Assembly (NCBI RefSeq): GCF_900631615.1 | Contig: NZ_LR131273.1 | Coordinates: 3,504,850-3,568,849, forward strand | Length of the DNA stretch: 64,000 bases | Origin: Tsukamurella paurometabola | GTDB lineage: Bacteria > Actinomycetota > Actinomycetes > Mycobacteriales > Mycobacteriaceae | Reading direction: 5' to 3' | In this document: in pieces, positions 3,101 through 34,153 of the stretch | Layout: each line of letters starts with the position of its first letter | Position numbering within the stretch: position 1 is the stretch's first letter | Made by a program: the position numbers and the translations under genes | Notes under the pieces: generated by a model | Databases searched by the model: none | Told to the model about the DNA's origin: nothing | Seen by the model: only the letters and a program-made list of their open reading frames with translations

Positions 3101-3174
3101 GCCCCCGTAGCCCAATTGGCAGAGGCAACGGATTCAAAACCCGTCCAGTGTGAGTTCGAGTCTCACCGGGGGCA
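3101..3174 (+). tRNA. tRNA-Leu (anticodon CAA)
   Basis: A full cloverleaf can be drawn. The acceptor stem 3101-3107 pairs with 3167-3173, with discriminator A3174. The D stem is GCC/GGC. The anticodon stem 3128-3132/3140-3144 has one A-C mismatch next to the loop. The T stem 3150-3154/3162-3166 carries the loop TTCGAGT. The anticodon at 3135-3137 is CAA, which reads UUG. No CCA is encoded. The variable region is only five bases (3145-3149), unlike the long arm expected of tRNA-Leu. The 3' end from 3152 is the integration site of the 31-kb element and is kept intact by it. Confidence 0.88.
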
Positions 3175-3176
3175 CT
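3152..3176 (+). repeat. attL core (tRNA 3' end)
   Basis: This 25-bp sequence starts GAGTTCGAGTC and ends GGGGGCACT. It is identical to 34129-34153. After one mismatch (G/A) the next three bases, CCG, also match. It covers the T arm, the 3' acceptor strand, the discriminator and two bases beyond. Reforming the tRNA end is the usual design of tRNA-targeting tyrosine integrases. Confidence 0.92.
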
Positions 3177-3185
3177 GCCGAGATA

Positions 3186-3224
3186 CGAAAGAACCCGCAG
3201 GTAGATCGCCTGCGGGTTCTTTCG
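3186..3224. terminator. strong hairpin, likely bidirectional terminator
   Basis: A perfect 16-bp stem (3186-3201 with 3209-3224) closes a 7-base loop. It sits just inside attL, between the tRNA and the 3' end of the integrase gene that reads toward it. Reading rightward, the 3' arm ends in GTTCTTTCGTCTT, which is moderately T-rich. Confidence 0.75.
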
Positions 3225-3245
3225 TCTTCGGGTTCAGAGCTGGTC

Positions 3246-3265
3246 GTGAGCACGTTTTGAGCACA
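3246..3265. promoter_or_regulatory. candidate integrase arm-type site, left
   Basis: The sequence GTGAGCACGTTTTGAGCACA contains two TGAGCAC heptamers in direct orientation, 11 bp apart start to start. A near-copy (GTGAGCACGAAATGAGCACG) lies at 34016-34035 inside the other end of the element. Paired short repeats inside both ends are typical of the arm sites bound by the N-terminal domain of lambda-type integrases. The assignment is inference. Confidence 0.5.
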
Positions 3266-3279
3266 GTTCGGTCCGATGC

Positions 3280-4437
3280 TTACGCGGAGAGGGTGGCTGC
3301 GCGGTCTAGTGCGACAGCGACGCTGTCGAGGTCGTCGGGGAAGAGATCCGCGTAGGTGTCGAGAGTGAGCGTGGCAGAGCTGTGGCCCAGCATTCTTTGA
3401 ACAGCCTTGACATGAGCGCCCGCGGAGATGGCCAACGAGGCTGCAGTGTGTCGCATGTCGTGCGGCGTCACACGAGGGAAAGGTGGCGTCGTAGCCTCTC
3501 CGTGCTCGCTCTGCGCAGCTTCCTTTGCGCGCGTATTGGTGGTGTTCTTGATGCATCGCTGAACTGCACCGTCCCACCAGGTGTTATGCCCCGGCGGCTT
3601 GGCGTATCCGCCTTGAGCAGCCGGAAACACGATGTCATCTGGCTGCATCCCTCGGCAGTGGTCGGCGAGCATCGTGACGACGAACGCGGGTAGGGGAACC
3701 GTTCGACGCTCGTAGTCCTTTGGATCGCCGATGTGCACCGTCTTACCCACGAACACGGCGATCCTCTCAACCGACACTCTGCCGCGTCGGAGGTCTATGT
3801 GACGCCGCAGGAGGCCCGCGAGCTCCGACCAACGCAACCCTGTGTACGCAAGGACATAGACCTCAATCGCATGCTGCTTGGCCTCGTTGGCGAACAGTGC
3901 GACCTGCGTGTGAGTGAGAAACTCGTTGCTCTTCGCGGTACCTCGTCGAGGCAACTTCACACCGCGGGCGGGATTCGACCCGATCCGCCTGTCTGCCACC
4001 GCCCCCTCCAAGATGCCGGACAGCACGCCGTGGATCCGCGCGACTGAGTTGGGACCCAAGTTCTCGGACAACTCGGCAATCCAGACCCGAATATCGGTGG
4101 CCCGCACCTTCACAACCTGGACTTGGCCCCAACGCGGCTCGACGTGGACGCGCCAAGCCGATTCGACTGAGCGCTCACCGGACGGTTTGGTGTGCGCGCG
4201 ACCCGCGAGCCACTCCGTGCCGAGAGTGCCGATTGTGACCCTGCCAGCGTTGACATCGATGTACTCGCCACGAAGTGCGCTGACCTGGACGGTGGCGAGG
4301 TACGCTTCCGCTTCCCTTCGAGTTCGAAATCCGCGTTTCGTCGTCTGGACACCGCTCGGACGGCGATACCTCACCATGTAGCGGCCTCGGTCTCGCGCAG
4401 GCCCTCGCGCAAGTTCGTAACGTTCAATCGTTGCCAT
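3280..4437 (-). CDS. int: tyrosine site-specific integrase
   Basis: The 385-residue protein starts at ATG 4437 (MATIERYELARG). It has an N-terminal arm-binding region, a SAM-like core-binding domain (about 70-150) and a C-terminal catalytic domain. Visible catalytic residues are Arg in TGLRWSEL, His-x-x-Arg in HDMRHTAAS, His in MLGHSSATLTLDTYADLF and the nucleophile Tyr in the same stretch. The gene reads toward attL, ends about 100 bp from it, and is expected to carry out integration into and excision from the tRNA-Leu site. Its first 14 bp overlap the end of the upstream XRE gene, so the two are probably translated from one transcript. The open frame upstream of 4437 lies inside the XRE gene and was not used. 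Confidence 0.93.
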   Translation of the reverse strand: MATIERYELARGPARDRGRYMVRYRRPSGVQTTKRGFRTRREAEAYLATVQVSALRGEYIDVNAGRVTIGTLGTEWLAGRAHTKPSGERSVESAWRVHVEPRWGQVQVVKVRATDIRVWIAELSENLGPNSVARIHGVLSGILEGAVADRRIGSNPARGVKLPRRGTAKSNEFLTHTQVALFANEAKQHAIEVYVLAYTGLRWSELAGLLRRHIDLRRGRVSVERIAVFVGKTVHIGDPKDYERRTVPLPAFVVTMLADHCRGMQPDDIVFPAAQGGYAKPPGHNTWWDGAVQRCIKNTTNTRAKEAAQSEHGEATTPPFPRVTPHDMRHTAASLAISAGAHVKAVQRMLGHSSATLTLDTYADLFPDDLDSVAVALDRAATLSA

Positions 4438-4987
4438 CGAGCGCGGCCTCCTCAACCGCGACCCTCTCGATCTCAGCCGCCACCTCGGCGACGATGAGCG
4501 GAGTCTGCCGAGCGCGTCGCTGCTTGTTCGCTCCTTCGCCAGCGCGACGATCACGCTCGACTGTCGCCGTCGTGCCGTATAAGCGTTCGGCGGCAACTTG
4601 GACGACTACCGGATCAGCGTCGAGTTCTGCGCTGATCCGGTCATCGACCGCACCCCAACCCGGTGCGAGGGTTGGATCGGGAAGCGGGGGGAGCAGCGGT
4701 GTGACAGGGGTGCCGCGCAGCGCCGAACGGACGGGCTCCTCGGACTCGGGGATAAGGTCAGCAAGCTGAAGGGGATGGCCCAGCAGGTCGCCAAGTGCAA
4801 TAGCCAAGGGGAGCAATGTCTCTAGATGCGCAGCCGCGACCTTGCCCTGTTCAAGCTGGGTTACCCGTGCCTTCTGCCAGGTAAGGCCTGCCCGCTGTGC
4901 CGCGCGCGCGAGTTGGTCCTGGCTGAAGCCCGCATCCGTACGAAGCTGGCGGACGCGCGCTCCAATGAGCGTGTCGAGTTTAGTCAC
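4424..4987 (-). CDS. XRE-family transcriptional regulator
   Basis: The 187-residue protein (GTG start at 4987) has an N-terminal Cro/CI-type helix-turn-helix (about 8-70: VRQLRTDAGFSQDQLARAA, then VTQLEQGKVA). A Pro-rich linker and an Ala/Glu-rich helical C-terminus follow. It is transcribed together with int, overlapping its start by 14 bp, and faces away from the Xis-like gene. That is the usual position of an element's maintenance repressor, so control of int/xis is a reasonable inference. A palindrome lies directly upstream at 4996-5011. Confidence 0.82.
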   Translation of the reverse strand: MTKLDTLIGARVRQLRTDAGFSQDQLARAAQRAGLTWQKARVTQLEQGKVAAAHLETLLPLAIALGDLLGHPLQLADLIPESEEPVRSALRGTPVTPLLPPLPDPTLAPGWGAVDDRISAELDADPVVVQVAAERLYGTTATVERDRRAGEGANKQRRARQTPLIVAEVAAEIERVAVEEAALDGND

Positions 4988-4995
4988 CCCGCTAG

Positions 4996-5082: not shown

Positions 5083-5304
5083 ATGACGACGGTTACCGGC
5101 TTCATTCATCCTGATGCGCTCTATTCGACTCGGGCGGCAGCCGACGTGATCCCTGGGACTACAGCCGCTGGGCTGGCGAAGATGCGGGAGCGTGGAATTG
5201 GGCCGGAGTATGTGCAGCATCGCCCGCGCGGCGCGGTTACATACCGCGGTTCGGATCTCATCGCCTGGATTGAATCGGCCGTTCGTAAGCCGGGAGGGTG
5301 GTGA
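5083..5304 (+). CDS. excisionase/AlpA-like small DNA-binding protein
   Basis: The 73-residue protein (MTTVTGFIHPDALYSTRAAA) has the AlpA/Xis pattern: a short N-terminal strand, 'LYSTRAAADVI' as a helix-turn-helix opening, and a wing with TYRGSDLIAWIESA. Its size and its position, divergent from int/XRE beside the attachment site, fit a recombination directionality factor. It could instead be a transcriptional activator of excision genes. The ATG has GGGGG upstream at 8 bp. A terminator-like hairpin follows. Confidence 0.7.
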   Translation: MTTVTGFIHPDALYSTRAAADVIPGTTAAGLAKMRERGIGPEYVQHRPRGAVTYRGSDLIAWIESAVRKPGGW

Positions 5305-5324
5305 CGGCGTCCTAATACGCGAAA

Positions 5325-5379: not shown

Positions 5380-5592
5380 ATGGCAAGCGTAGCACGCCGC
5401 GAGGCACCCGGTCACGTCGCAAACGTGCAGGTCACGCATCGATTTGCTGTGCCGCGCGTGTCGATCGCGCTCGGATCGCTCGACCCCCTTACCGGCGAGA
5501 GCACGGTGGTCGTCGCCATCACTCCGGCTGACGCACGGGCGGCTGCCCACCGACTCCTGGACGCGGCGGCGCGAGCAGAGGGGGCGGCGTGA
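5380..5592 (+). CDS. small hypothetical protein
   Basis: The 70-residue protein has an excellent ribosome binding site (AAGGAGGAGGG) ending a few bases before the ATG. The middle reads as beta strands (HRFAVPRVSIALG, STVVVAITPADA) and the end as an Ala-rich helix. It overlaps the next gene by 4 bp (GTGA), so it probably belongs to the same operon. The family is not recognised. Confidence 0.6.
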   Translation: MASVARREAPGHVANVQVTHRFAVPRVSIALGSLDPLTGESTVVVAITPADARAAAHRLLDAAARAEGAA

Positions 5593-6062
5593 CGGAGCCC
5601 GAAGCTCCTCCACGGTCCGCGCCGACGGGGCGTGGATCGCACTCCGATCGGGCCGCTCGATGGGTGCGCGAGCTGGCTGCGGATCAAGGCCGCGGTCGGC
5701 TCGAACCTCTTCCACGTCTGCTTCTGTTCGTCATTGCGTCCCATGCGGATCGGTACTACTCGTGGCCCATCTCCGGCTCTCTGTTTCGGATGGAGACTGG
5801 GATGAGCGCGCAAGGTGTTTCAGACGCGCTGGACGACCTGGAGTGGCTAGGGCTGGTCTACCGGGCTGGTGACGCGCGCACCGGCAGGCGCTCTCGCTAC
5901 TACCTGCCCGCTCCCGGCGGGGCCGATCCGGCCAGTAGTCCGGAAAGGCGGGAGGAGTACGCGGCGGCCGTCGCTCGGGCCATCGCCGTCCGGGCCGATC
6001 CGCAGTCGCCCGCGGATCGCCGCCGCGAGCTCCGCCTGAAGCGGAGGGCCGCCTGTGGATAA
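5589..6062 (+). CDS. winged-helix protein, possible replication initiator of the element
   Basis: The 157-residue protein starts with GTG and overlaps the preceding gene by 4 bp. Residues about 42-110 (LPRLLLFVIASHADRYYSWP, then GMSAQGVSDALDDLEWLG, then RSRYYL) form a clear winged-helix domain. The C-terminus is basic and Ala/Arg-rich. Replication proteins of small actinobacterial elements often start with such a helix-turn-helix, and a block of 22-bp repeats follows directly (6145-6194). Replication initiation is therefore a possibility, but a plain transcription regulator fits equally well. Confidence 0.55.
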   Translation: MTEPEAPPRSAPTGRGSHSDRAARWVRELAADQGRGRLEPLPRLLLFVIASHADRYYSWPISGSLFRMETGMSAQGVSDALDDLEWLGLVYRAGDARTGRRSRYYLPAPGGADPASSPERREEYAAAVARAIAVRADPQSPADRRRELRLKRRAACG

Positions 6063-6090
6063 GCAGCTTGAGCACGAGATCGACCTCTCC

Positions 6091-6194
6091 GCCCGGTGGG
6101 GAGGTACCACCCTGCCCGGCGTTGAGGTACCTCTACGCCGGGTGGGGACCTCCTCCCCACCCGGTAGGGACCTCCTCCCCGCCCGGTGGGGACC
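6091..6194. repeat. iteron-like GC-rich repeat block
   Basis: Two tandem 22-bp units (6145-6166 and 6167-6188) share the pattern GGGACCTCCTCCCC[A/G]CCCGGT[A/G], followed by the first six bases of a third. The flanking sequence repeats GCCCGGTGGGGA (6091 and 6181), and CCGGGTGGGGA/TCCCCACCCGG forms an inverted repeat. A 63-codon frame runs through it from a GTG at 6055, but its sequence is dictated by the repeats and I do not count it as a gene. It could be an origin of replication or a regulator-binding cluster. Confidence 0.55.
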
Positions 6195-8866: not shown

Positions 8867-9046
8867 ATCCGGACCTCTTGTGCCTGTTGCAGCACTCCGC
8901 GATGCGATAGCGTGCGAGACAGCACCGACGGCCTGCTGTGGCGGCGGGCCCGGTGTCAGCGGGCAGCGGGGCGGGGCCAATCGCTAGTGGCATGGATCAG
9001 CTCTCCGGGGCGCTGGCCCGCCCGCCGTTCGCGCAGAGGAGTCGAG

Positions 9047-9982
9047 ATGGACCGCCGTGAGGATCGAGCCAAGAACAGCGAGGAGCTGAATCGGCGGCTA
9101 GCGGAGAGCGACGGTCCCCTCGGCGTTCACGACGACGATGAGCGGGGAACGAGCTACGGGCCGCTGTGGGTCGCCGACGGTGATCCGAGGGTCTATACCG
9201 AGGAATCTGACTATTCGGTCGAGCAGGCCCGTGAACAGGCCCTCTTCTGGTGGGCCGCAGCTGCGGCTGCCGAACGAAACCGCATGGAACGTATGGCTGA
9301 CGACGTCGAGCATGGCGATTACGTGCCCATACCCGGCAGCTTGGAAGTGCATGTTCCGCTGCCTGAGTACGTGCCCGTCGACCGCACGGGACCGGCGATA
9401 CGAGCCGCTCTGCGGGAGGCATCGCCGGATGAGCTTCCGGATTTCGAAGCGGAGTTCCGGATCGCGCTGGCCGAGGCGGAGGACAACTTCGACCTCTCCC
9501 GGGTAGACGCGGCCCTCACCCGCTGGTGGGGTGTCGCGCACATGCGTCTCAACCCGCCGACTGCCGCGGAGCGCGAGCTCGTCGAGCAGGTCGCTCGCGG
9601 CGACTTCGAGGGGCTGCAAGTTGAGTGGCGCGTCTACTTGATTCGTGAAGGGCCGGGCTGGTCCGCGGTGATTCCCGGAACGCCGATCGCAGCGGACGGC
9701 GCGACGCGCGAGGAGGCTCTCGACGAGATGGTCGACGCCCTGCGTGACTACGTCGAGTCGCGGAACGAGTACCTCCGGCTCGCTCCTAACCACGCCGCCA
9801 ACAAGAACCTCGTCGACTTGATCGACGGCGAGACCGACGAAAGCCTGCGCAGATGGGTAGCCGCCGGGGACTGCGGCGACGCGCAGCGCGAGTACGACAC
9901 CTCGCCGGTCCTACGCGATGCCCTGCGGCGCGCTCGGGAAGCGCGGTCCGTGAAGAGGGTGTTCCGCCGCCGCGACGAGTAG
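9047..9982 (+). CDS. DUF6247-like / HicB-like two-domain protein
   Basis: The 311-residue protein starts at ATG 9047 behind GAGGAGTCGAG; the open frame to 8912 is noncoding. An acidic N-terminus (1-110) leads to a region (about 115-190) with GPAIRAALREASPDELPDFE and RVDAALTRWWGVA, which resembles DUF6247. Residues about 197-240 (YLIREGPGWSAVIPGTPIAA then EEALDEMVDALRDYV) resemble the HicB antitoxin fold. HicB normally pairs with an upstream HicA mRNA interferase, but no HicA is visible. The C-terminus is helical and basic. A stand-alone toxin-antitoxin relic or a regulator is possible. Domain names are from recalled patterns. Confidence 0.6.
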   Translation: MDRREDRAKNSEELNRRLAESDGPLGVHDDDERGTSYGPLWVADGDPRVYTEESDYSVEQAREQALFWWAAAAAAERNRMERMADDVEHGDYVPIPGSLEVHVPLPEYVPVDRTGPAIRAALREASPDELPDFEAEFRIALAEAEDNFDLSRVDAALTRWWGVAHMRLNPPTAAERELVEQVARGDFEGLQVEWRVYLIREGPGWSAVIPGTPIAADGATREEALDEMVDALRDYVESRNEYLRLAPNHAANKNLVDLIDGETDESLRRWVAAGDCGDAQREYDTSPVLRDALRRAREARSVKRVFRRRDE

Positions 9983-10130: not shown

Positions 10131-10556
10131 TCACGTGGCCGCGCCGGGAGGGCCGGGCCTCCAAGTAGAGAGAACGTCCGAGGCCCGGGATTCCTCGACC
10201 ACCTTCCGCGCGTCAGAGTCCCTGTAGGCCATCTCGAAGTCGGTGAGCAACAGGATCAATGGATGAGTGCGAACGTCCCGAACGAGAGCGTCAGGTGATT
10301 CTGCCTCCCAAGCAGCGACTGTGATGCGGTATCCGTTCACCTCGTGGCCAAGCCTGCGGGACAGATCGGTGCACATCGTGCTCGCGGCGCGACGTTCGAC
10401 GGTGCCGATCAGCAGCACGTCGATGTCGCTCGGAGGGGGACCGTCGACGCCGTGGTACCGCGCAGCGAACGAGCCGAAGATGTACCCCACCACCAGGCCG
10501 TCCAGCTCGATCACGGCCTCGCGGATCGCCTCGATGATCTGGTCGGGATCAGTCAA
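10131..10556 (-). CDS. MNT-type nucleotidyltransferase domain protein
   Basis: The 141-residue protein starts at TTG 10556 (TDPDQIIEAIREAV). It has the minimal nucleotidyltransferase signature GSFAARYHGVDGPPPSDIDV: GS followed by DxD, the metal-binding pair. Such proteins act as the nucleotide-transferring half of MNT/HEPN toxin-antitoxin systems or of AbiEii-like pairs. No HEPN gene is adjacent. The frame stays open to 10694, but the upstream part is out of character and a small coupled frame ends at this TTG (TTGA overlap), so the shorter start was chosen. It is bracketed by IS remnants and an IS3 element, so a partner may have been lost. Confidence 0.65.
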   Translation of the reverse strand: MTDPDQIIEAIREAVIELDGLVVGYIFGSFAARYHGVDGPPPSDIDVLLIGTVERRAASTMCTDLSRRLGHEVNGYRITVAAWEAESPDALVRDVRTHPLILLLTDFEMAYRDSDARKVVEESRASDVLSTWRPGPPGAAT

Positions 10557-10654
10557 ATTGATCTCACCTCCAGTGTTCGCGGGTCGATGAGCAGGAGGTT
10601 CTGCGACAAGAGATCCCCGTCGGCGTCGAGCCCCTCGACTTGCGTCGATCCCAC
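10553..10654 (-). CDS. tiny reading frame coupled to the nucleotidyltransferase
   Basis: The GTG at 10654 opens 33 codons (starting GSTQVEGLDADGDLL) whose TGA overlaps the TTG of the nucleotidyltransferase. The coding character (LLSQNLLLIDPRTLEV) looks protein-like and the same frame stays open well upstream without a start codon. It may therefore be the C-terminus of a decayed partner gene rather than a complete gene. Confidence 0.3.
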   Translation of the reverse strand: MGSTQVEGLDADGDLLSQNLLLIDPRTLEVRSI

Positions 10655-10970
10655 CCGATCGCTGTACCGCCAGTGGCATGCCAGTCTCCGGCAATCGCGA
10701 CGCGGTCGGGGGCAGGCTTCATAGTCGCGATTCTCGCACCTGGGGTGTCCGGCGTCCGTGGAAGTGGTGTCGTCCGAAACATGCTGAGCCAGTTGATTGG
10801 CAACCGTCGAGTGGTCGGATGAAGAACACGCTGATCCAGTTGACTGTCAGCGCCGGCCTGGGAGCGAGCGTGGACTCACTCGAAGAACAGGTCCCGCTTC
10901 CACGACCTCGGGACTGCTGCACCGATAAGGACATCTGATCTGGCTTGCCCGCATAGGGTGGCCTGGAAGG

Positions 10971-11288
10971 ATGACTATCGTGCCGAAGCCGTATCCGCAG
11001 GAGTTCCGTGATGACGTGGTCCGCGTGGCCCGTGAGCGCGAGTCGGGGGTGACGCTCGCCCAGATCGCGAAGGACTTCGGGATTCATGAGATGACGCTGC
11101 AGAAGTGGTTGCGCCGCGCGGATATCGATGACGGCCGCAGGCCGGGAACGACATCAACGGAATCGGTTGAGCTGCGTGAGCTGCGGAAGCGGAATCGCTT
11201 GCTGGAGCAGGAGAATGAGGTATTGCGGCGGGCGGCGGCGTATCTGTCGCAGGCGAATCTGCCGGGAAAAGGCTCTACCCGCTCGTGA
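10971..11288 (+). CDS. IS3 transposase OrfA
   Basis: The 105-residue protein has an N-terminal helix-turn-helix (FRDDVVRVARERESGVTLAQ, IAKDFGIHEMTLQKWLRRA) that binds the IS ends. A leucine-rich helix (ELRELRKRNRLLEQENEVLR) for dimerisation follows. Near the 3' end is the string GGGAAAAGG. A -1 shift there would join it to orfB through KRLYPLVKELAADG, the usual IS3 way to make the active OrfAB transposase. Confidence 0.9.
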   Translation: MTIVPKPYPQEFRDDVVRVARERESGVTLAQIAKDFGIHEMTLQKWLRRADIDDGRRPGTTSTESVELRELRKRNRLLEQENEVLRRAAAYLSQANLPGKGSTRS

Positions 11289-12145
11289 AGGAGCTCGCCG
11301 CCGACGGCATTCCCGTGGCGGTGACGTGCCGGGTTCTCAAGCTCTCTCGTCCGCCGTACTACCGGTGGCTGACCGAGGCGGTCACCACGGCTGAACGAAC
11401 CGAGGCCGTGCGGGCGAACGCGCTGTTCGATGCCCACCGTGATGACCCGGAGTTCGGGTATCGATTTCTCGCCGATGAGGCCGAAGCTGCTGGCCAGAGC
11501 ATGAGTGCGCGGACGGCGTGGCGGATCTGCTCGGAGAACAGCTGGTGGTCAAGGTTCGGGAAGAAACGCGGCCGGAACGGGAAGAAACCCGGCCCGCCGG
11601 TGCACGACGACCTCGTCGAACGCGACTTCACCGCCGAATCTCCGAACCAGTTGTGGCTCAGCGATATCACCGAGCATTGGACTGACGAGGGCAAGGTCTA
11701 CCTTTGCGCGATCAAGGACGCCTGCTCGGGGCGGATCGTCGGCTACAGTATCGACTCCCGCATGCAATCACGTCTCGCCGTCAGTGCGTTGAACAATGCG
11801 GTTGCCCGCCGTAGCCACGACGTCGCAGGTTGTATTGTGCACTCCGACAGAGGCTCTCAATTCCGGTCCCGCAAATTCGTGTCGGCGTTGAACCGACACC
11901 ATCTGGTCGGATCGATGGGCAGAGTCGGCGCCGCCGGCGACAACGCCGCGATGGAGTCGTTCTTCGCACTGCTGCAGCGCAACGTCCTCGACCGGCAGCG
12001 ATGGAGCACCCGCGAGCAACTCCGGATCGCGATCGTCACCTGGATCGAACGGACCTACCACCGCCGGCGCCGCCAGGCCCGCCTCGGCCGGTTGACGCCG
12101 ATCGAATACGAGGCGATCATCAACACAGCCGCATCAGCGGCATGA
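11285..12145 (+). CDS. IS3 transposase OrfB (DDE integrase core)
   Basis: The 286-residue frame overlaps orfA by 4 bp and is probably expressed mainly by -1 frameshifting. The rve-type catalytic triad is visible: Asp in QLWLSDITEHWTDEG, Asp in IVHSDRGSQFRSRKF, and Glu in NAAMESFFALLQRNVL. The N-terminal HTH_21 region (EFGYRFLADEAEAAGQSMS) is present. It looks complete. Confidence 0.92.
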   Translation: MKELAADGIPVAVTCRVLKLSRPPYYRWLTEAVTTAERTEAVRANALFDAHRDDPEFGYRFLADEAEAAGQSMSARTAWRICSENSWWSRFGKKRGRNGKKPGPPVHDDLVERDFTAESPNQLWLSDITEHWTDEGKVYLCAIKDACSGRIVGYSIDSRMQSRLAVSALNNAVARRSHDVAGCIVHSDRGSQFRSRKFVSALNRHHLVGSMGRVGAAGDNAAMESFFALLQRNVLDRQRWSTREQLRIAIVTWIERTYHRRRRQARLGRLTPIEYEAIINTAASAA

Positions 12146-12241
12146 CACCGTAACTGTCTCTATCGGTGCAGCAGTCCCCTCAGTCATACACCAGTTGATA
12201 CGTTATGCAACGAGCTGACCAGGGGGAAGGAGACGGGCGGC

Positions 12242-13132: not shown

Positions 13133-13147
13133 GGGTTGATTTTGAAC

Positions 13148-16837: not shown

Positions 16838-16885
16838 GGTGGGCCTCCTCTACACCTCGAGCTGAGCATACTGTGAGCGCGGATC

Positions 16886-18035: not shown

Positions 18036-18050
18036 TAGGTGCTGGTCTAG

Positions 18051-25750: not shown

Positions 25751-25802
25751 GCCTCAATTCTCGCAGGCACCAAACTGTTCAATGATTAACGACACGCGCC
25801 AC
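24656..25802 (-). mobile_element. IS630-family insertion sequence, copy 2 (1147 bp)
   Basis: It is identical in length and encoded protein to copy 1, has the same GTGGCGCG/CGCGCCAC ends, and is flanked by TA (24654-24655 and 25803-25804). It interrupts the FtsK/TraB-type gene. Removing it together with one TA rejoins the frame without any change. Confidence 0.94.
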
Positions 25803-26448
25803 TAGCATGGTCCGCGTCGAGATAGAACCGTCTCACCGGCGGAGGGAACCCCTCCGTCAGATTTTCAGCTCGTCTGCGGATCAGCAGGATCACGAGCTCG
25901 CCGTTCGAACCTCGGCGGGCGGCGCGATGAATCTCATACTGCGTCCGAAACTGCTGCGCGACAGCATCGCCGAGCTCCTTGATGTGGACAGTTCCACCAA
26001 CGGGAAGCGTGATCTCGACGAGGATGTCGCGCCAGCCCGGCTCTGAGCTGCCGATCAGCTTCGCAATCCCGTAGCTCCCGGCGGGAAGGTGAATCGACGT
26101 AAGCCAATCGGACTGCGTGAGCCGCCAGTTCCAGATCGAGACCCAGCGCTCGGCTACGGTTCCCTCCGGCTTTGCCTGTCCTCGCTCGGGAACCGGCAGG
26201 TGGATTTCCTCGACGTCGCGAGCCAGCGCAATGAGTTCGTTGGCGTCCGCCTGCAGGCGAGCCTTCTGTGCGGCCTTACCGTCTGTCGTCGGCTCGACCG
26301 GCTCGACCGGCTCGACCGGCTTGACCGGCTTGACCGGCGCGGTCTCCTCGGCCTTCGGACGACGCGCGGGCTTCCGTTCCGGCGGTGCGGGCTCAGGCGC
26401 ATCGACGACCTTCGGGACGCCGGTAAGCCGTGCAAGTGGATTGCTCAT
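25803..26448 (-). pseudogene. FtsK/TraB-type translocase, N-terminal part (gene split by IS630)
   Basis: This is the first 215 codons of the split gene. The ATG at 26448 overlaps the upstream stop (ATGA). An N-terminal Pro/Lys/Glu repeat region (VKPVKPVEPVEPVEP) precedes an alpha/beta region (ERWVSIWNWRLTQSDWLTSI, GWRDILVEITLPVGGTVHIK) without membrane segments. The frame now runs into the IS and stops after SGACR. In the intact protein this would precede the ATPase and may direct oligomerisation or membrane contact. Confidence 0.8.
26290..26334. repeat. 9-bp tandem repeat, five units
   Basis: Five units of CGGCTCGAC or CGGCTTGAC encode the alternating Val-Pro-Lys/Glu repeat of the translocase N-terminus. 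The unit is a multiple of three, so copy changes would lengthen or shorten the linker without breaking the frame. Confidence 0.7.
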
Positions 26449-27593
26449 TTCCACACCACCGCGCCGTCCTCGTCGTCCTGGCTCGCGGCGGCGGAATTAT
26501 TCGTCACCGTGACGTGCAGCAAGCCACTTGAGTGATCGCGCTGCACGATCGGCGGCATCGCCGCGCGGACCTTCCACGCCTTGAGCAAGGCGGCCAGCTT
26601 CTTGGTGAGTTCTTCCTCGCCAACGGAGGCATGCGCGGCGGCGATGACGATCCGCGCGTCACCCTCACCGAGCGGCTCGATCCGGACGACGTCCAGCCAG
26701 TAGCTCGGGACCGGCTCACCGGTGACCTGGTTGTTGGTATAGGTGACCCACCGGAAGTCCTTGCAAACCTTGTGCAGCCGCGCATTCGCGATGGACGGTC
26801 CCCCCGACTCGTCGGCAACGGCGGCGAGTGCGCTGCCCTCGGGCGCGGAGAACCCGCCGGTCACAGCCTGATTCTTCGCGAGTGCGACCGCCTCCTCGGT
26901 CGTCAGATGCGGCTCGCTCACGCACACCGAAGTGGGATCGAACGGCGGAATCTCCGCGCCGATCGAAGCGAGATCTGCGTACCGCGCACGGTGAGCGGAC
27001 TCGGCCTGAGTGAGCCGCTCGTGGACGGCGTGCTGATAATCAGCCTCAGCGAGCTGGTAGCCCGCGACCGGCCAGTCGAGCCGCTTCGCAGACCTTCGCG
27101 CGAACCATGCAACCGCCGCGCCCACGACCACGATGGAGACCTGTTCCGAGGTCGCCAGGCCACCGAGCGGTACGCCAAGACCAGCCAGTAGGAGAGCCCC
27201 ACCGAGCACGCCGAAAGCGACCGACCCGGCCCGCTCCCGGCGAGCCTTCGCGACCGCCAACCGCGCCGCGGGCCCCGCCGGATCACGACCGGGAGGAACC
27301 GCCGAGTTGTTGATCAAGCCCATCGCGGCGATGAGGACAAGTAGGCCGCCCGCCAGCGCGGGAATGAGCACGCGGGGCTCCTTGAACGCGCGCGACTTCG
27401 CCTTCGGCGACGACCGATAGTCGGCCTCCGCCTCATTCATGATCTTGTCGATCTCCGCGGCCGAGCACGCGAGTCCGCGCGGGCTGTCGCAGGCGGCAGA
27501 TGAAGTGGTCGGCGCGGGGGTGGAGGGCTGGTTCTGAGAGGCCGAGCAGCCGCCCAGAACCAGCCCGCCGAGCGCGATGGCGGCGATTAGGAG
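26445..27593 (-). pseudogene. lipoprotein/membrane transfer protein, main part (gene split by IS21)
   Basis: The main part of the gene reads AAIALGGLVLGGCSASQNQP from the IS edge, continues through ACSAAEIDKIMNEAEADYRS, and ends at TGA 26445. There are hydrophobic segments at RVLIPALAGGLLVLIAAMGL and around AGSVAFGVLGGALLLAGLGV, then a long soluble domain ending DEDGAVVWK. Adding 18 codons from 30659-30712 gives a 398-codon frame starting MTSPQNAPWRRAHSTLLI, with lipobox LGGC near residue 31. An ATG at 27440 could yield a 331-residue product lacking the signal. It is coupled to the translocase gene downstream (ATGA). Confidence 0.82.
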
Positions 27594-27739
27594 TGGCTAT
27601 GACAGCTTGAAGAGGCCCCGGCTCGACGGCTAGACCTGGCCCCGTTTGCGACTCGCCGGTGGTGTTGCGACGGTTTGATCTGGCCCCACCTGATGGTTGC
27701 TCGTGAACATCGTTTCCGAGCCGAAGCAGGTGGTGGCCA

Positions 27740-29500
27740 ATGATGGGATCGAAGGTGGAGCTGTTCGCGCAGATCCGGCGGGACGCCCGGGTCGAGGGCA
27801 TGAGTATCCGGGCGTTGGCTCGCAAGCATGGCGTGCACCGGAGGACGGTGCGGCAGGCGTTGTCATCGGCGGAGCCGCCGCCGCGGAAGACGCCGGAGCG
27901 GTCGTCGCCGCGGTTGGACCGGTTCAAGGCGGCGATTGATGAGATGTTGCGGTCGGATCTGGATGCTCCGCGTAAGCAGCGGCACACCGCGACGCGGATC
28001 CGGGAACGCCTGGCGATCGAGCACGATGCGGTCGAGTTGTCGTATTCGACGGTGCGGGACTACGTGCGGGTCCGGCGGGCGCAGATCGAGGTGGAGGCCG
28101 GCCGCCGCCGGGAGGTGTTCATCGCCCAGGACCACGCATCCGGGGCGGAGGCGGAGGTCGACTTCGGCGAGGTCTGGGTGATCCTGGGCGGGGTGAAGAC
28201 CAAGTGCCACATGTTCGTCTACCGGCTCTCGCACTCGGGCAAGGCCATTCACCGGGTCTATCCGACCGGCGGGCAGGAAGCGTTCCTCGAAGGGCACGTC
28301 GAGGCGTTCCGCGAGCTCGGCGGGGTCCCGACCCGGCATATCCGCTACGACAATCTCACCTCGGCGGTGGTCGCGGTCCTGCAGGGCGGAGACCGGCGGC
28401 GACAGGAGAACCCGCGGTGGACGTTGTTTCACTCGCACTACGGATTCGATCCGTTCTACTGCCAGCCCGGCATCGCCGGGGCGCACGAGAAGGGCGGCGT
28501 TGAAGGCGAGGTCGGATGGTTCCGCCGCAACCGGCTGACCCCAATGCCGCAGGTCGAGTCCCTCGATGAGCTCAACGAGCAGATCAAAGCCTGGGAGGAC
28601 CGCGACGAGGGCCGCCGGATCGACGGACGACTGCGCACCATCGGCCAGGACTACGAGCACGACCGAGCAGCGCTCGCGCCGCTGCCGGTGGAGGATTTCG
28701 ACCCGGGCCTGATCCTCACACCACGGGTCGATCGGTCGGCGATGATCACCGTTCGGATGGTGAAGTATTCGGTGCCGGCGCACCTGATCGGCCGCCGAGT
28801 CCGCGTCTCACTACAAGCCTCCCAGCTGCTGGTCTACGACGGCCGGACCCTGGTCGCGCGGCATCCACGGGTCGCCGGCCGCGGCACCGCGAAGATCGAC
28901 CTCGACCACTACCTCGAGGTGCTCAAGTTCAAACCCGGTGCCCTGCCGGGATCAACGGCGTTGGCGCAGGCCCGCGCTGCCGGGGTGTTCACCGCCAGCC
29001 ATGATGCGTTCTGGGCCGCCGCCCGACGAGTCAACGGCGACACCGACGGCACCAGCGAGCTGATCGACGTCCTGCTGCTGCACCGCAGCCTGCCCGCCGC
29101 GGCGGTGATCGCCGGCATCGATGCTGCATTGCGGGTCGGGGCGGTGAGCGCCGAGGTCGTCGCCGTTGAGGCTCGCCGCGCCGAAGCCCGCCTGCTCGCG
29201 CACGCCTCGGTCGCTGCCGACCAGACAGGTGGGGCCAACGCTGGCCGTCATCTCGATCGCCATGCCGAACGACGCGAGCAACGAGTTGTCAGCCTCACCC
29301 AACGACGGCTCGCAGACCCCGCGGCGGTGATCGCCGGCCTGCCACCCGACCGGCGACCGCTGCCCAGCGTTACGGCCTACGACCGCCTGCTCCCGCAGCA
29401 CCGGCGACGCACTGCCTCCGACGCGCTACCTGCGTCGCTGGACCCACCACCGATTGAGTCGCTGGACCCACCACCGATTGAAAGGCCCACCCGGCTATGA
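27740..29500 (+). CDS. istA: IS21 transposase IstA
   Basis: The 586-residue protein has an N-terminal HTH (MSIRALARKHGVHRRTVRQA) and an rve DDE core: Asp in AEAEVDFGEVWV, Asp in HIRYDNLTSAVV, Glu in EKGGVEGEVGWFRRN. A C-terminal beta-rich domain follows (MITVRMVKYSVPAHLIGRRV). The extreme C-terminus contains the duplicated octapeptide SLDPPPIE, a 24-bp tandem repeat. It overlaps istB by 4 bp, so the pair is translationally coupled. Confidence 0.94.
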   Translation: MMGSKVELFAQIRRDARVEGMSIRALARKHGVHRRTVRQALSSAEPPPRKTPERSSPRLDRFKAAIDEMLRSDLDAPRKQRHTATRIRERLAIEHDAVELSYSTVRDYVRVRRAQIEVEAGRRREVFIAQDHASGAEAEVDFGEVWVILGGVKTKCHMFVYRLSHSGKAIHRVYPTGGQEAFLEGHVEAFRELGGVPTRHIRYDNLTSAVVAVLQGGDRRRQENPRWTLFHSHYGFDPFYCQPGIAGAHEKGGVEGEVGWFRRNRLTPMPQVESLDELNEQIKAWEDRDEGRRIDGRLRTIGQDYEHDRAALAPLPVEDFDPGLILTPRVDRSAMITVRMVKYSVPAHLIGRRVRVSLQASQLLVYDGRTLVARHPRVAGRGTAKIDLDHYLEVLKFKPGALPGSTALAQARAAGVFTASHDAFWAAARRVNGDTDGTSELIDVLLLHRSLPAAAVIAGIDAALRVGAVSAEVVAVEARRAEARLLAHASVAADQTGGANAGRHLDRHAERREQRVVSLTQRRLADPAAVIAGLPPDRRPLPSVTAYDRLLPQHRRRTASDALPASLDPPPIESLDPPPIERPTRL

Positions 29501-30324
29501 CCGCAACCGCCAATAAGAACCAGACGAATGCGCTGGCCCCGTCGTTGCGCCGCCGGGGCGGCCTCACCGAAGAAGCCGCCCTCGCCGCCGTTGACCAGGC
29601 CTGCCGGCGCCTACGCCTGCCGACAGTGCGGTCGATGATCGACCAGCACCTCACCGCCGCCGCCAAGCAGCAATTGTCCTACCAGGGGTTCCTCGCCGAA
29701 CTCCTGCTCGCCGAAGTCGACGACCGGGACCGCCGCTCCACTGTTCGCCGCGTCAAAGCCGCGGGGTTCCCGCGGGAGAAGTGGCTGGCGGACTTCGACT
29801 TCGACGCCAACCCCGACATCGAACCCGCCACCATCCACCAGCTCGCCACCGGCGACTGGATCCGCCACGGACTGCCGCTCTGCCTCATCGGCGACTCCGG
29901 AACCGGCAAATCCCATCTGCTGATCGGATTGGGAACCGCTGCCGCCGAGCAAGGCTTTAGAGTCCGCTACACCCTCGCCACCAAACTAGTGAACGAGCTG
30001 GTCGAGGCCGCTGACGAGAAGCAGCTCGCGAAGACCATCAACCGCTACGGCCGCGTTGACCTGCTCATCATCGACGAGCTCGGCTACATGGAACTCGATC
30101 GCCGCGGCGCCGAACTGCTCTTCCAAGTCCTCACCGAACGCGAAGAGAAGAACAGCGTCGCGATCGCTTCCAACCAGTCCTTCTCCGGCTGGACTGACAC
30201 CTTCACCGACCCACGACTCTGCGCCGCGATCGTCGACCGGCTCACCTACCGCGGCACCATCATCGAAACCGGCACTCACAGCTACCGCCTGGCTCACACC
30301 GAAGCAGCAGCTACCGCGGGCTAA
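29497..30324 (+). CDS. istB: IS21 helper ATPase IstB
   Basis: The 275-residue AAA+ protein is of the DnaC/IstB type: Walker A LIGDSGTGKSHLLIGLG (about residue 127), Walker B VDLLIIDELGYMELD, sensor IASNQSFSGW. It regulates the IstA transpososome and target choice. It looks complete. Confidence 0.94.
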   Translation: MTATANKNQTNALAPSLRRRGGLTEEAALAAVDQACRRLRLPTVRSMIDQHLTAAAKQQLSYQGFLAELLLAEVDDRDRRSTVRRVKAAGFPREKWLADFDFDANPDIEPATIHQLATGDWIRHGLPLCLIGDSGTGKSHLLIGLGTAAAEQGFRVRYTLATKLVNELVEAADEKQLAKTINRYGRVDLLIIDELGYMELDRRGAELLFQVLTEREEKNSVAIASNQSFSGWTDTFTDPRLCAAIVDRLTYRGTIIETGTHSYRLAHTEAAATAG

Positions 30325-30572
30325 GCGCGGCGTTCGTCCTTGACTACCGACAGATGCCGGCGCAAGGCCCGGTTCTGGTGAGTGACATAAACCACGGTCC
30401 ACCGGGTCGTCAGGTTCGGCAGTCGCTCCCCGTCTTTAATCTTCACCCGGACCGATACCTGATCACCGAGCTGATCATCACGCGCGATCACGAACTCGGC
30501 ATACGCACGCACCGACTCGCGATCCCAACCAGTCGGCGCAACCACACTGCGCACCCGCGGCCGCCCATCCAC
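30321..30572 (-). CDS. possible passenger frame inside the IS21 element
   Basis: This 83-codon frame is antisense to and convergent with istB, overlapping its end by 4 bp. It is beta-strand-like (DQVSVRVKIKDGERLP, RWTVVYVTHQNRALRRHL), which looks like protein, but there is no clear ribosome binding site. It lies in the 334 bp between istB and the right IS end, which is longer than needed for an IS terminus. The rest of that stretch holds nothing else I can name. Confidence 0.35.
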   Translation of the reverse strand: MDGRPRVRSVVAPTGWDRESVRAYAEFVIARDDQLGDQVSVRVKIKDGERLPNLTTRWTVVYVTHQNRALRRHLSVVKDERRA

Positions 30573-30658
30573 ACCCCGGACTCTAGCGGCTCAGGGCCCC
30601 ACTCAGGTGGGGCCGAATGAAACCGCCCTACCGGGGCCAGATCAACTTGACATAGCCA

Positions 30659-30712
30659 GATTAGGAGAGTGGAGTGGGCCCGCCGCCACGGCGCGTTCTG
30701 GGGGGAGGTCAT
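30659..30712 (-). pseudogene. first 18 codons of the IS21-split lipoprotein gene
   Basis: The ATG at 30712 (ATGA overlap with the upstream gene) opens TSPQNAPWRRAHSTLLI, the basic n-region and start of the hydrophobic core of the signal peptide. Then the IS21 end begins. Together with 26445-27584 this makes exactly 1194 bp. Confidence 0.8.
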
Positions 30713-30998: not shown

Positions 30999-32558
30999 TC
31001 AGTCGAGCGTCGGGTGCCAGCCGAACAGTGCGCGGTGGTGCAGCGCCTCGGGAGGCTCGGGGATATTCTCGTCGCCCGGCTGGGCCAACGCGCTTCCGAG
31101 TAGCCCGTTGTACCCCTCCGCAGCATTCGGCTTGTTGCACAGAATGACACGCGAGAATGCATCGACATAACCGAGCGCGCAACGTAGGAGACTCAGGCCG
31201 AGCGTCGGGACGTCGGCGACGAGCGTGCTCGGCCCGAACGCACGTTCAGGCATCGCCCGATAGGCCCCCAAGTCGTCGTAGTGCTGTTGCGTCAGTCCGT
31301 TGCTTGAGTTCGGTAGGAGATCGGGTACCTTCCCCAACTCGATCGCGACCAGCTTGGTGGATCCGTAGGAACGCGCGAGCCATGCTCCCGCGGGTAGGAC
31401 ACCCCCGTGCACCCTGTTGCGCAGTTGCTTCGCGATCCACGCGTACTTCTGTAGGCGTTCCACATCGACGAGAAGACTCGCGTCATAGTTGGGTCGAACG
31501 TGCTTATCGATGAATGCTGCGGAATCGAGTGACTGCCGGGACTTTCCGAGCTCCACGCTCGGGTTGAGTAGATGCTCGTAGAGCCTGCCAAACATGTCAA
31601 ACGCCGCCGATAGGTACAGCAACTCACGGTCGAGCGCCTCCGATGTCGCCTCAGTGACGTCGACTTGGTTCTGCCCGTCCTGCCCGTTCGAGAGTGCGGC
31701 CAGGAGGCCGTCGAACGCTCGGACAGCTCGGCACAGTCTGATCTCGACAGTTTCGAGTGCCTCGACCGTGGCGAACTGAAGCATGCACCCCGCGATGATC
31801 TTAAGTAGATGAAAGTAGCGCAGTCCGCTGATCACTCCGTCCCTGTAGAGGTCGTGAACGGAGCGAGACTGCGTCGTGCGCGTCCACTCTCCCCAGCTAT
31901 TCGTCCCGCGTTCCACGCGGGTCACCGGGTTGTGCTTCACGCGGAAGTAGTGCCCGATCACTGCGACCGCTTCATCCGGGCGCACGGCGAGCACGATGTC
32001 GTTGTCCTGGACGTCGGCGCGCCCGGCTGTAACGGCGTTGGTAACGATGACGTCGATCTGTACCGCGCCTGCTCCGGCTGCGTAAGCCGCGGCGCGGTGT
32101 CGGTCGCCCAGTGGGATCGCCGGTACCCCGTCTGGCATATCGCTCTCATCCAACTGGGAGTACACCCCGAAGAAGTGCCCACTCGTCCAACAGAACACCT
32201 TTCCGTCCTGGTTCAGCGTCACAGGCACGCGCGAGGTGTCGAGCAGCCGCTCACTGTCGTCCACGGAGGTGTACGTGATGCGTGCGACCACCGCAGAGGG
32301 GAGCAATGTCAACCATTCGCAGGGCACTTCGTCTTCGTTCTGAACCAGGAGATACGGCTCGACCTCGTCGCGCGTAAGCAGCTCAGGCAGGTAGCCGTCT
32401 GGAGGTGTCGGGACCGTCGCGACGTCGATCCCGAGCCGCACAGGGCGAGTTGCGGGTCGCAGCGGGAAGAGCGGGGTGTGTTCGGCTCGCTTACCTGTCG
32501 GCGGGCGGACGTACCTCATGAACCGGTAGTTCGGTTGCCCCTCGGGGATGACGACCAT
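30999..32558 (-). CDS. large cargo protein of unknown function
   Basis: The 519-residue protein starts at ATG 32558 (VVIPEGQPNYRFMRYV). The frame stays open to 32762, but that part overlaps the divergent gene. The N-terminal half is beta-rich; the C-terminal half is helical (LLYLSAAFDMFGRLYEHLLN, RLQKYAWIAKQLRNRVHGG). The RNRVHGG segment inside a helical domain recalls the basic R-(3-6)-H signature of HEPN-type RNases, though spacing and family are unproven. No transmembrane segment. It is the last leftward gene before attR and faces away from 32623, a typical place for defence cargo. Confidence 0.6.
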   Translation of the reverse strand: MVVIPEGQPNYRFMRYVRPPTGKRAEHTPLFPLRPATRPVRLGIDVATVPTPPDGYLPELLTRDEVEPYLLVQNEDEVPCEWLTLLPSAVVARITYTSVDDSERLLDTSRVPVTLNQDGKVFCWTSGHFFGVYSQLDESDMPDGVPAIPLGDRHRAAAYAAGAGAVQIDVIVTNAVTAGRADVQDNDIVLAVRPDEAVAVIGHYFRVKHNPVTRVERGTNSWGEWTRTTQSRSVHDLYRDGVISGLRYFHLLKIIAGCMLQFATVEALETVEIRLCRAVRAFDGLLAALSNGQDGQNQVDVTEATSEALDRELLYLSAAFDMFGRLYEHLLNPSVELGKSRQSLDSAAFIDKHVRPNYDASLLVDVERLQKYAWIAKQLRNRVHGGVLPAGAWLARSYGSTKLVAIELGKVPDLLPNSSNGLTQQHYDDLGAYRAMPERAFGPSTLVADVPTLGLSLLRCALGYVDAFSRVILCNKPNAAEGYNGLLGSALAQPGDENIPEPPEALHHRALFGWHPTLD

Positions 32559-32622
32559 GCGGAAATGATCGCAAGCGAACGGTAGGTGCGAGGCACATTC
32601 GATCCTCTGGCACGATCCAGGC

Positions 32623-33435
32623 ATGGGCAGTTCTGGACACCGGGTCGTGATCGAGGATGCTGACGGAGCGTTGCGCGCCCTGTGCAAGATCCAGATCCTT
32701 GCTGACGGTGGGTACTCGGTGATCTGCCCATACCACAGCGCGCGGGAAGGCTGGCTCTTCAAGATCCCGATCGGACTTGGTTACGGTCCTCAGAACGGTA
32801 AGTGGGCATCAGTCGAAGATGCTGTTCACTACACGGCATCCGACCACGTCAAGCTGTCGCACCACAGGGACGGACTCGTGCAGTTCAGCAGCGAATCCAA
32901 GGGGACGATCCGCTCCGGTATCAACGTGCTCGGCCTCCCGAGGGGGATCGGCGTCTTCTCAGTGCCGATTGATGTAGGGGTTACGACCGGCCCCGCCTTT
33001 GGTCTGTCCGCCTGGGGCCTCGGTGACTACTCAGAAGTAGACGCCCTGCGGAAGTCTGATCTCGTATTCCGCATAGCAGATATGGACTTCCAATCGTGTA
33101 CCCCCGGAACCGCTAACGGCTACTCGCTGGAGGGATGGCTACTATCCAAGGAGTGGCGAGGAGGCATCCATGAAGGTACTGGCGACAGTCGAATACGGCT
33201 GTGCGGGACGACACCCGCGGGTCAGTCGAGGTCCATCGAACTCCGTGTAATCCAACTACGGGGGACCGAGTCATTCGTTGGAGTGCAAGTACGAAGGATT
33301 CATCAGAGATTCCCAGATGCTTCAGGGTTCTGGTTCGGCGGACCGAGGGGGCGCGAGGGCGATCAAATTGTCGCTGCCTATCCGCGACCGGACGGTACCT
33401 TTGCCGACGCTGAGAGCCTTGACTACAGGCCATGA
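32623..33435 (+). CDS. cargo protein of unknown function
   Basis: The 270-residue soluble protein is mainly beta-rich (HRVVIEDADGALRALCKIQI, GGYSVICPYHSAREGWLFKI, INVLGLPRGIGVFSVPIDVG). No catalytic motif or membrane segment was recognised. It faces away from the large unknown gene across 64 bp, so the two probably share a control region. The C-terminal 40 residues are Gly/Arg-rich and less convincing. Confidence 0.55.
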   Translation: MGSSGHRVVIEDADGALRALCKIQILADGGYSVICPYHSAREGWLFKIPIGLGYGPQNGKWASVEDAVHYTASDHVKLSHHRDGLVQFSSESKGTIRSGINVLGLPRGIGVFSVPIDVGVTTGPAFGLSAWGLGDYSEVDALRKSDLVFRIADMDFQSCTPGTANGYSLEGWLLSKEWRGGIHEGTGDSRIRLCGTTPAGQSRSIELRVIQLRGTESFVGVQVRRIHQRFPDASGFWFGGPRGREGDQIVAAYPRPDGTFADAESLDYRP

Positions 33436-34015
33436 TCTCTGCCCTGGACACGGAAGCGCGTTACCGCCCGAATAGCTGGATGACCGGGCTGTGTGGCCAC
33501 TCCTGCACCGCCTGTCGTGGAGCCGCTTCGGGTGCTCCACGACTTGCCGCGAAGGCAGCGTCCGGAGATCGAGGAAGATCGGCTGATGACGGGCGGTGGA
33601 CAGAGCTTGCTGCATCTTGTTCACCGTGAAGAATGTGCCGCCTCCCGCTGGCGCTAGCCGTGCCATCATCACGTGTCGCTTCAGGGAGAGGAACACTTCG
33701 TCCGCCAAGTCATCGGCGGGGGTGGCGGTTGATCGCGGCGCATCCGGCAACGCTACGACCGGGTGGGGTGGACGCGGGCAGTATTTCATCTTGCAGTCCG
33801 CAGTCAGTCCGCAGTAGCTCCGGTGCGGCTCGTCGCTCGCCAATGTCACCAACGGCCTGACATGCAGGAATCCAACGCGTCCAACGTTCCCGGCGTAATC
33901 AAACGCCCAGGACGTAGTTCCGCTTCAATGTGTAGACCCGCAGTTCAGAGCCGGTAGGAGCGGGCTCAGTCCGCAAAAGCGGTTTCGTGGACCACTCGGC
34001 AATCGGGGGCCGTCC
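33436..34015. other. gene-poor stretch before attR
   Basis: No convincing gene on either strand. The open frames are short, Arg/Ser-rich and mutually overlapping. A small hairpin CCGCAAAAGCGG lies near 33972. This is the inner right end of the element. Confidence 0.5.
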
Positions 34016-34035
34016 GTGAGCACGAAATGAGCACG
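34016..34035. promoter_or_regulatory. candidate integrase arm-type site, right
   Basis: GTGAGCACGAAATGAGCACG differs from the left-end site (3246-3265) at only a few positions: the central three bases and the last. It has the same pair of TGAGCAC words 11 bp apart. It lies 93 bp inside attR. Confidence 0.5.
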
Positions 34036-34128
34036 GATTCGCGTCGGTTGGTGTCGATCTATGTCGACTCAGGTCTGTCATCGTCGCAGCTCATTGCCTC
34101 CTGGCGATTACTGACTGCGTTGACGAAA

Positions 34129-34153
34129 GAGTTCGAGTCTCACCGGGGGCACT
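34129..34153 (+). repeat. attR core
   Basis: This is a perfect 25-bp copy of the tRNA-Leu 3' end (3152-3176). The sequence before it (TGACGAAA) does not continue the tRNA, so this is the displaced copy. Chromosomal sequence resumes after 34153. The stop codon of the protease-nuclease gene begins 7 bp further on. Confidence 0.92.

Follow-up and report, generated by a model that had tools for sequence, protein, structure and literature searches.

What kind of element occupies the tRNA-Leu(CAA) gene of Tsukamurella paurometabola, and is it still equipped to transfer itself? In a 64-kb stretch of this genome (the window; the genome is a single contig of 4,698,699 bases), a preliminary description had placed a 31-kb element in the tRNA gene and likened it to the actinomycete integrative and conjugative elements (AICEs), with a tyrosine integrase, an excisionase (Xis)-like gene, an FtsK/TraB-type ATPase, a DUF2637 protein and defence-like cargo. 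The analysis presented here makes it rather likely that the element is a mosaic, AICE-like integrative element of Tsukamurella that has been damaged by insertion sequences (ISs). Such an element would probably still be able to excise; its self-transfer is doubtful.

The bounds of the element were examined by repeat comparison. The tRNA-Leu(CAA) gene, the integration target, was located by ARAGORN at 3101..3175 (+ strand), and its 3′ part forms the left attachment (att) site. The two copies of the tRNA 3′ end, attL at 3152..3176 (+) and attR at 34129..34153 (+), are direct repeats that agree exactly over 25 bp and at 97% over 29 bp. A search of the whole 4.70-Mb genome with the tRNA recovered the second copy through an exact match of 24 bases, which for a given 24-mer greatly exceeds chance expectation. 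About 31 kb (31,002 bp) is enclosed by the tRNA gene and the copy of its 3′ end. The locus was compared across 16 Tsukamurella genomes, own genome included. The tRNA and its upstream flank were matched in all 16, and the right flank in 12 at an E value of 1e-50 or better, with a match that begins no later than base 9 of the flank in 7 of the 16. One of the 16, G002, has an empty site: both flanks are contiguous and overlap in 24 bases, with identities of 98.3% over 176 bases on the left and 89.9% over 575 bases on the right. The exact bounds proposed for the element are thus borne out by the repeat and the empty site. The 25-bp repeat is exact in the window, but its 25th base is absent from the empty site, and the supported att core is therefore 24 bp. 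The joining of the G002 flanks through this core refutes the notion of a coincidental repeat in ordinary chromosomal DNA, which can be regarded as practically out of the question. This comparison shows that a tyrosine integrase put the element into the 24-bp 3′ end of the tRNA gene while keeping the tRNA intact. At this locus, an integrative element of Tsukamurella can thus be bounded exactly and set against an empty site as control. The gene beside attR (34160-36112) encodes a 650-aa protein with a non-specific DNA/RNA endonuclease domain (PF01223, 3.1e-42); DNA of this gene adjoins the empty site in G002.

Comparison of the locus in relatives, which had been suggested as a check, yielded the unoccupied site in G002, and no close copy of the integrase in 14 of the 15 other genomes or of FtsK in any of the 15. 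Neither of the two outcomes named beforehand as refuting the proposal, the same block at this locus in all relatives or the lack of any strain with a free site, was thus encountered. Judged by these two genes and not by a search with the whole block, the 31-kb island is confined to this genome. Where the tRNA and the start of the right flank lie on the same contig in other genomes, the gap between them is 2.6 kb (G013), 3.1 kb (G010) or 11 kb (G005). The distance is larger in G004, where a partial match of 359 bp is reached after about 55 kb and the full one after about 65 kb. Downstream of the tRNA, its 3′ end is repeated in G004 (two copies), G012 (at 8 kb) and G001 (at 12 kb), and G011 has a copy on another contig. 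These gaps and second copies indicate that tRNA-Leu(CAA) is a recurrent integration site.

The single close integrase, 95% identical, resides in G004 in a sister island of 41.5 kb, which has a copy of the tRNA 3′ end at either boundary and is preceded by a phage-like element of 10 kb. Relatives of several window products (42-73% over the matched stretches) are encoded there, namely of the XRE, Xis-like, nucleotidyltransferase, DUF6247, DUF2637 and trypsin-like products and those of 13951-14418 and 18299-19039. A Prim-Pol gene (PF09250, 3.3e-16) is present in the G004 island, and tblastn with the window FtsK pieces gave no match there. The shared integrase, the Prim-Pol gene and the lack of an FtsK match suggest that the same integration head bears different replication and transfer cargo. 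The element in front of the sister island (G004:C3:3159316-3169616, locus L063; about 10 kb, by the same tRNA and in tandem with the 41.5-kb island) has open reading frames (ORFs) that appear, by eye, integrase-, XRE-, AlpA-, HNH-, terminase-, portal- and capsid-like; it resembles a phage satellite or a prophage remnant.

In the window, the tyrosine integrase (3280..4440, −; PF00589, 3.8e-18), as had been described, lies beside the att site; its G004 relative, at the corresponding tRNA, is 94.5-95% identical. It is overlapped by the gene of an XRE-type regulator (4424..4987, −; HTH_31, 8.3e-7) with a 52% relative beside the G004 integrase. Nearby is a small putative excisionase (5083..5304, +), so named from its position and a 51% relative also beside that integrase. 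Excision as a circle would proceed through this Xis-like protein under XRE control. The same integrase-XRE-Xis layout would suit a prophage or phage satellite at this tRNA, as would the match of another window protein to a phage-like replication-initiation family, the phage-like element (judged by eye) at this tRNA in G004 and the presence of related FtsK genes in prophiGD51-2, which is recorded as a prophage. Of the island proteins scanned (28 with Pfam and 10 with PHROGs), however, none matched a capsid, portal or tail family, and the only terminase match was a weak one of the FtsK ATPase (0.0013). A phage origin is therefore considered very unlikely.

The motor gene of the element has been interrupted. 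IS630 copy 2 (24652..25805, −; 1154 bp identical to copy 1) lies within ftsK, between ORFs of 222 and 443 codons. The N-terminal piece (25786..26454, −), the last codons of which are within the IS, aligns to the first part, and the C-terminal piece (23287..24618, −) to the second part, of intact counterparts that are single ORFs of 577 aa on the plasmid pTpau01 and 643 aa in genome G023. The alignment indicates that IS630 cut the motor gene into these two ORFs. The FtsK_SpoIIIE domain (PF01580, 2.6e-11) is still within the open frame of the C-terminal piece. Self-transfer has thus probably been lost or reduced, though the motor domain remains an open frame, and the proposal of a working single-ATPase AICE is not supported, given the split motor gene and the failure to find RepSA, RepAM or Prim-Pol. 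Could the two pieces work together as two polypeptides in a functional AICE-like element? Both are open, the split falls between an N-terminal region without predicted transmembrane (TM) segments and the motor, and the TM part is encoded by a separate gene. But the same regions form one ORF in pTpau01 and G023, and IS630 presumably stands between the C-terminal piece and the native start of the gene with its signals for translation. Such a function is unlikely.

The genes on both sides of ftsK have relatives in the same position at other loci. A protein with two TM segments by hydropathy (26445..27440, −), encoded 5′ of ftsK, is the likely membrane partner of the motor; its relatives by tblastn, which also precede ftsK, are found on pTpau01 (41%), in G023 (28%) and in Mycobacterium prophiGD51-2 (28%). 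On the other side, a small protein with a helix-turn-helix (HTH)-like stretch by eye (22895..23287, −) has tblastn relatives next to FtsK in 4 of 7 other loci (G001, G004:C1/plasmid 14, G012 and G013; plasmid 14 is a T. tyrosinosolvens record). At the other three (Gordonia effusa, G023 and prophiGD51-2) no tblastn match was obtained, and the ORF after FtsK aligns at 29-31%; in prophiGD51-2 this ORF is annotated as HTH DNA-binding. None of the eight small proteins has a Pfam match; the comparison excluded pTpau01, where FtsK is truncated. The record of prophiGD51-2 (MW584195.1, locus L072), named a Mycobacterium phage, contains the two-TM/FtsK/HTH set and, in the manner of AICE-like elements, genes for DNA primase/polymerase. 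No relaxase or type IV secretion component reached the curated cut-off among the island proteins scanned with Pfam and NCBIfam. A search for a clt site as clustered short motifs (8-10-mers) gave only one six-copy 8-mer, within the DUF2637 gene, from which nothing was concluded.

The closest relative of FtsK and of the two-TM protein by tblastn is pTpau01 (50% and 41%, respectively), a plasmid of T. paurometabola DSM 20162 (NC_014159.1, 99,806 bases). It shares this pair of genes with the window and differs in being a plasmid, in its MOBF relaxase and in an FtsK cut short beside an IS21-family insertion. Among the 15 other genomes of the genus, the closest FtsK is that of G009 (51%). In the FtsK tree, the window and pTpau01 group at 99/98 and G012, G013 and plasmid 14 at 100/100, while the pIJ101 branch is long. 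Beyond the genus, a scan of named genomes with the FtsK alignment returned Gordonia effusa as the sole relative. Its locus (L069), with an FtsK 37-38% identical, holds DUF2637, an integrase (26%) and Prim-Pol, and a 331-aa ORF before FtsK is 31% identical to the two-TM protein in pairwise alignment, without a tblastn match at 1e-4. The G023 locus has relatives of the two-TM protein (28%) and of FtsK (37%) by tblastn. Both loci differ from the window in an intact ftsK and the lack of any resolvase or HEXXH match, and L069 also in its Prim-Pol gene. The solved chains matched by the FtsK profile include FtsK/SpoIIIE (4nh0), a 'DNA translocase coupling protein' (6o1w), FtsK and EccC; in NCBIfam the top match is EccCa, far under the cut-off.

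How far does the element conform to an AICE? As defined by Ghinet et al. 2011 (PMC3218068), AICEs combine integrase (Int), transfer (Tra) and replication (Rep) proteins within 30-60 kb, with int beside the att site, and fragments with two or fewer of the three are likely AICE remnants, prophages, transposons or other islands. Few AICEs are reported in Mycobacteriaceae by two further papers (PMC8190616, PMC7478629), and one literature search for Tsukamurella yielded, judged by title, no paper about such elements. The element shares with the AICEs of PMC3218068 a tyrosine integrase beside the att site at a tRNA 3′ end, a single FtsK_SpoIIIE protein (PF01580), a length of about 31 kb, an actinomycete host and cargo genes. 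It differs in the ftsK gene split by IS630, a resolvase within the module, its mosaic origin and the lack, as far as searched, of RepSA, RepAM or Prim-Pol. Prim-Pol gave no match in the whole genome, in a search whose control was detected in 2 of 14; RepSA (PF20199) likewise gave none in the whole genome, a weak negative as no control genome was detected; and no DUF3631 match (RepAM) was found with Pfam among 28 island proteins. The element works like an AICE in which, as far as searched, none of the published Rep types is present.

A candidate for the replication function lies next to the integration head. A winged-helix protein of 157 aa (5589..6062, +) matches MarR_2 (3.7e-6; score right at the cut-off, 27.4 versus 27 bits) and PHROG 270, 'replication initiation protein' (1e-6). 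Directly 3′ of its gene are five 22-bp direct repeats (6084..6194, +), candidate iterons or origin, detected by TRF with a score of 99, against 66 for the top of 100 dinucleotide shuffles. A relative of the protein occurs in 1 other of 301 family genomes (1e-5). Protein and repeats may together form a replicon, in which the initiator acting on the repeats might keep the excised circle temporarily, in place of RepSA, RepAM or Prim-Pol. In the ancestor, to judge from the relatives, the FtsK motor, with the two-TM protein as its anchor and the HTH-like protein perhaps as its guide, would have pumped the double-stranded circle into a neighbouring cell, and the DUF2637 protein may have helped its spread.

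Several observations weigh against this reading. The Xis-like ORF, supported by its position and its G004 relative, has no Pfam, PHROG or NCBIfam match. The candidate replicon consists of profile matches that are weak (1e-6) and a repeat array, and a 24-bp coding repeat within the IS21 transposase gene scores nearly as high (TRF 96). The association of the two-TM protein with FtsK rests on few loci, because matches were found in 3 of the 301 family genomes, own included. An ATPase of the FtsK_SpoIIIE family is present as had been described, but a TraB-type kinship is not apparent: compared with pIJ101 Tra, the single reference for the Streptomyces TraB/Tra ATPases, the window FtsK is alignable over the P-loop region only. 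pIJ101 Tra has a MarR_2 domain at 594-631 (2.9e-5), and no fused C-terminal winged helix was detected in the window FtsK by Pfam. As FtsK is not visibly near pIJ101 Tra and pTpau01 has a MOBF relaxase, transfer of double-stranded DNA is uncertain even for the ancestor.

Another explanation overlaps the preferred one: a defence island mobile through its integrase, not self-transferable, that rides a helper plasmid or element, with its transfer genes as relics. The split ftsK, the failure to find a canonical Rep and the four IS copies fit it, as do the G004 island at the same tRNA locus, which has Prim-Pol and in which the window FtsK pieces found no counterpart, and the residence of related modules on plasmids of the genus. 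Against it, the frames of the motor domain, of its membrane partner and of the small protein beside FtsK are still open, and the damage looks recent because the IS630 copies are identical. A relic of this kind is quite conceivable without being probable. It is also possible, though in our estimate rather improbable, that the element belongs to a split-component branch in Tsukamurella and Gordonia, with an FtsK in which no C-terminal winged helix is detectable, a separate two-TM anchor, a small HTH-like protein reading the transfer origin and, here, a winged-helix/iteron replicon in place of the usual Rep. If true, conjugation by a bare FtsK motor with split components would amount to a new form of the single-ATPase mechanism. 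The single locus is read here as a damaged relative of elements whose kind is broadly known, and split-component single-motor conjugation is offered as a testable idea.

The IS-damaged AICE-like element is also a mosaic, and this bears on the gene order that the preliminary description had found unfamiliar. The resolvase, HEXXH and DUF2637 genes that it listed are present. The serine resolvase (20659..21228, −; PF00239, 5.5e-38) has a 94% relative beside DUF2637 on plasmid 14, and the DUF2637 membrane protein (19341..20165, −; PF10935, 4.7e-7), spread-protein-like by position, an 85% relative. DUF2637 proteins may act like the Streptomyces Spd proteins, although pIJ101 SpdB had no Pfam match. 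Between the two lies a putative HEXXH metalloprotease (20162..20662, −; Peptidase_M50B, 1.2e-5, just under the curated cut-off), of 166 aa from an ATG that overlaps the resolvase stop, in a frame open to 20956; it has a 61-67% relative in G012. The order is not entirely new: a resolvase-DUF2637 pair near FtsK and its small partner recurs in G004:C1/plasmid 14, G012 and G013, differing from the window in that the two genes run divergently to those of FtsK and in that FtsK is 28-31% identical. Plasmid 14 has the adjacent pair at 94% and 85%, yet its FtsK is just 31% identical. G004 shows the same identities as plasmid 14, in a region on a contig of 306,652 bases, and the plasmid 14 record may be an assembly piece. 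The DUF2637 proteins of G012 and G013 were recognised by Pfam, not by tblastn, and their resolvases are 72% and 36% identical.

DUF2637 occurs at nine places in 6 of the 16 genomes. A resolvase adjoins it in four (the window, G004:C1, G012 and G013) and is not adjoining at G004:C3:3149054 and in G001; this count of neighbours leaves out G005, G004:C3:2720621 and G000:1745022. The HEXXH part was matched in 4 of 301 genomes besides the own (G012, G121, G321 and G318, at 1e-8). Matches to the first ~100 residues (in G004, G015 and a second one in G012) were taken as resolvase, because the query ORF 20162-20956 overreads the resolvase in another frame. A fixed role of HEXXH in the transfer operon was considered and found unsupported: its G012 copy adjoins a Toprim/D5 primase-helicase near an integrase, and the placement in the window therefore seems a local arrangement. 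The exact window order, with HEXXH between resolvase and DUF2637 and all on the ftsK strand, was absent from the other loci compared. Since resolvase and DUF2637 are near to plasmid 14 while FtsK is at 31%, and HEXXH lies elsewhere in G012, the order appears to be a local patchwork. In G012 and G013 the integrase lies beside tRNA-Pro and tRNA-Ala, respectively, and both loci have Toprim/D5 primase-helicases. No second att copy was found for either within 38-40 kb, so the label 'island' rests there on the integrase beside a tRNA. These data suggest that transfer, spread, replication and integration modules have been swapped among islands and plasmids of the genus. Flanking genes of the module encode a protein with partial relatives beside DUF2637 (18299..19039, −; 42-84% over parts in G004B, G004:C1, G012 and G013; no Pfam match) and a two-domain HTH_17 protein (21371..21853, −; 8.8e-25).

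The defence-like cargo that had been noted is present as an HNH and an AAA gene. The AAA ATPase (15248..16837, −) resembles PDC-M01A (5.1e-188) and PtuA1/PtuA (1.2e-163) in PADLOC, and the overlapping HNH gene (14392..15261, −; HNH, 1.3e-4; PDC-M01B, 8.9e-119) is PtuB-like by position, with no PtuB model among the matches listed (25 of 43). The arrangement of a PtuA-type ATPase followed by an overlapping HNH gene resembles that of Septu (PtuAB) and PADLOC PDC-M01; the pair differs from Septu in that its top matches are the PADLOC candidate PDC-M01 models and in that the NCBIfam retron-type PtuA model is matched far under its cut-off. This pair, which lies where the AT content of the island is highest (56-57% GC), would likely benefit the host. 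Adjoining the defence genes (12242-13930) are a secreted trypsin-like protein (12242..13132, +; NF051463, 4.4e-9, under the cut-off; no Pfam match), with relatives in the G004 island (45%) and the G012 island (28%, partial), and a lipoprotein predicted by eye (13136..13930, +; from ORF and codon use, no Pfam match). Other cargo includes a nucleotidyltransferase-like protein with an uncertain start (10131..10694, −; PADLOC candidate PDC-M05A, 4e-17; 64% relative in the G004 island; no Pfam match). A DUF6247 protein is encoded at 9044..9982 (+; 7.4e-12). Two overlapping ORFs have no assigned function: 30999..32762 (−; classed as cargo; no Pfam, NCBIfam or PADLOC match) and 32623..33435 (+; near attR, no Pfam or PADLOC match).

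Four IS copies, which the preliminary description had not mentioned, make up 6,646 of the 31,002 bp. IS630 copy 1 (16885..18038, −; DDE_3, 2e-20) and copy 2 belong to seven identical copies at full or near-full length in this genome; in the 15 other genomes of the genus the only matches at 1e-50 were to G006 (85% over 966 bp) and to G011, in the form of three short pieces of its ends. A composite transposon between the two window copies was considered and set aside; the two share one orientation and CTAG is present at either end, and nothing further speaks for it. The IS3-family element (10910..12178, +; orfA 10971-11288, orfB 11285-12145; rve, 1.2e-19) has terminal inverted repeats and CTC on both sides. 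The IS21-family element (27591..30659, +; istA 27740-29500, istB 29497-30324; IstB_IS21, 2.6e-62), bounded from the G004 copy, has ATTAG on both sides; target duplications at the IS ends form part of the case for the IS-damaged reading. The IS21-family element is 99.7% identical over 3069 bp to the copy in the G004 island, and near-identical IS21 copies (99.7%) are found in this genome, on two G004 contigs, in a T. tyrosinosolvens plasmid record and in G013 (loci L062, L071, L087 and L088).

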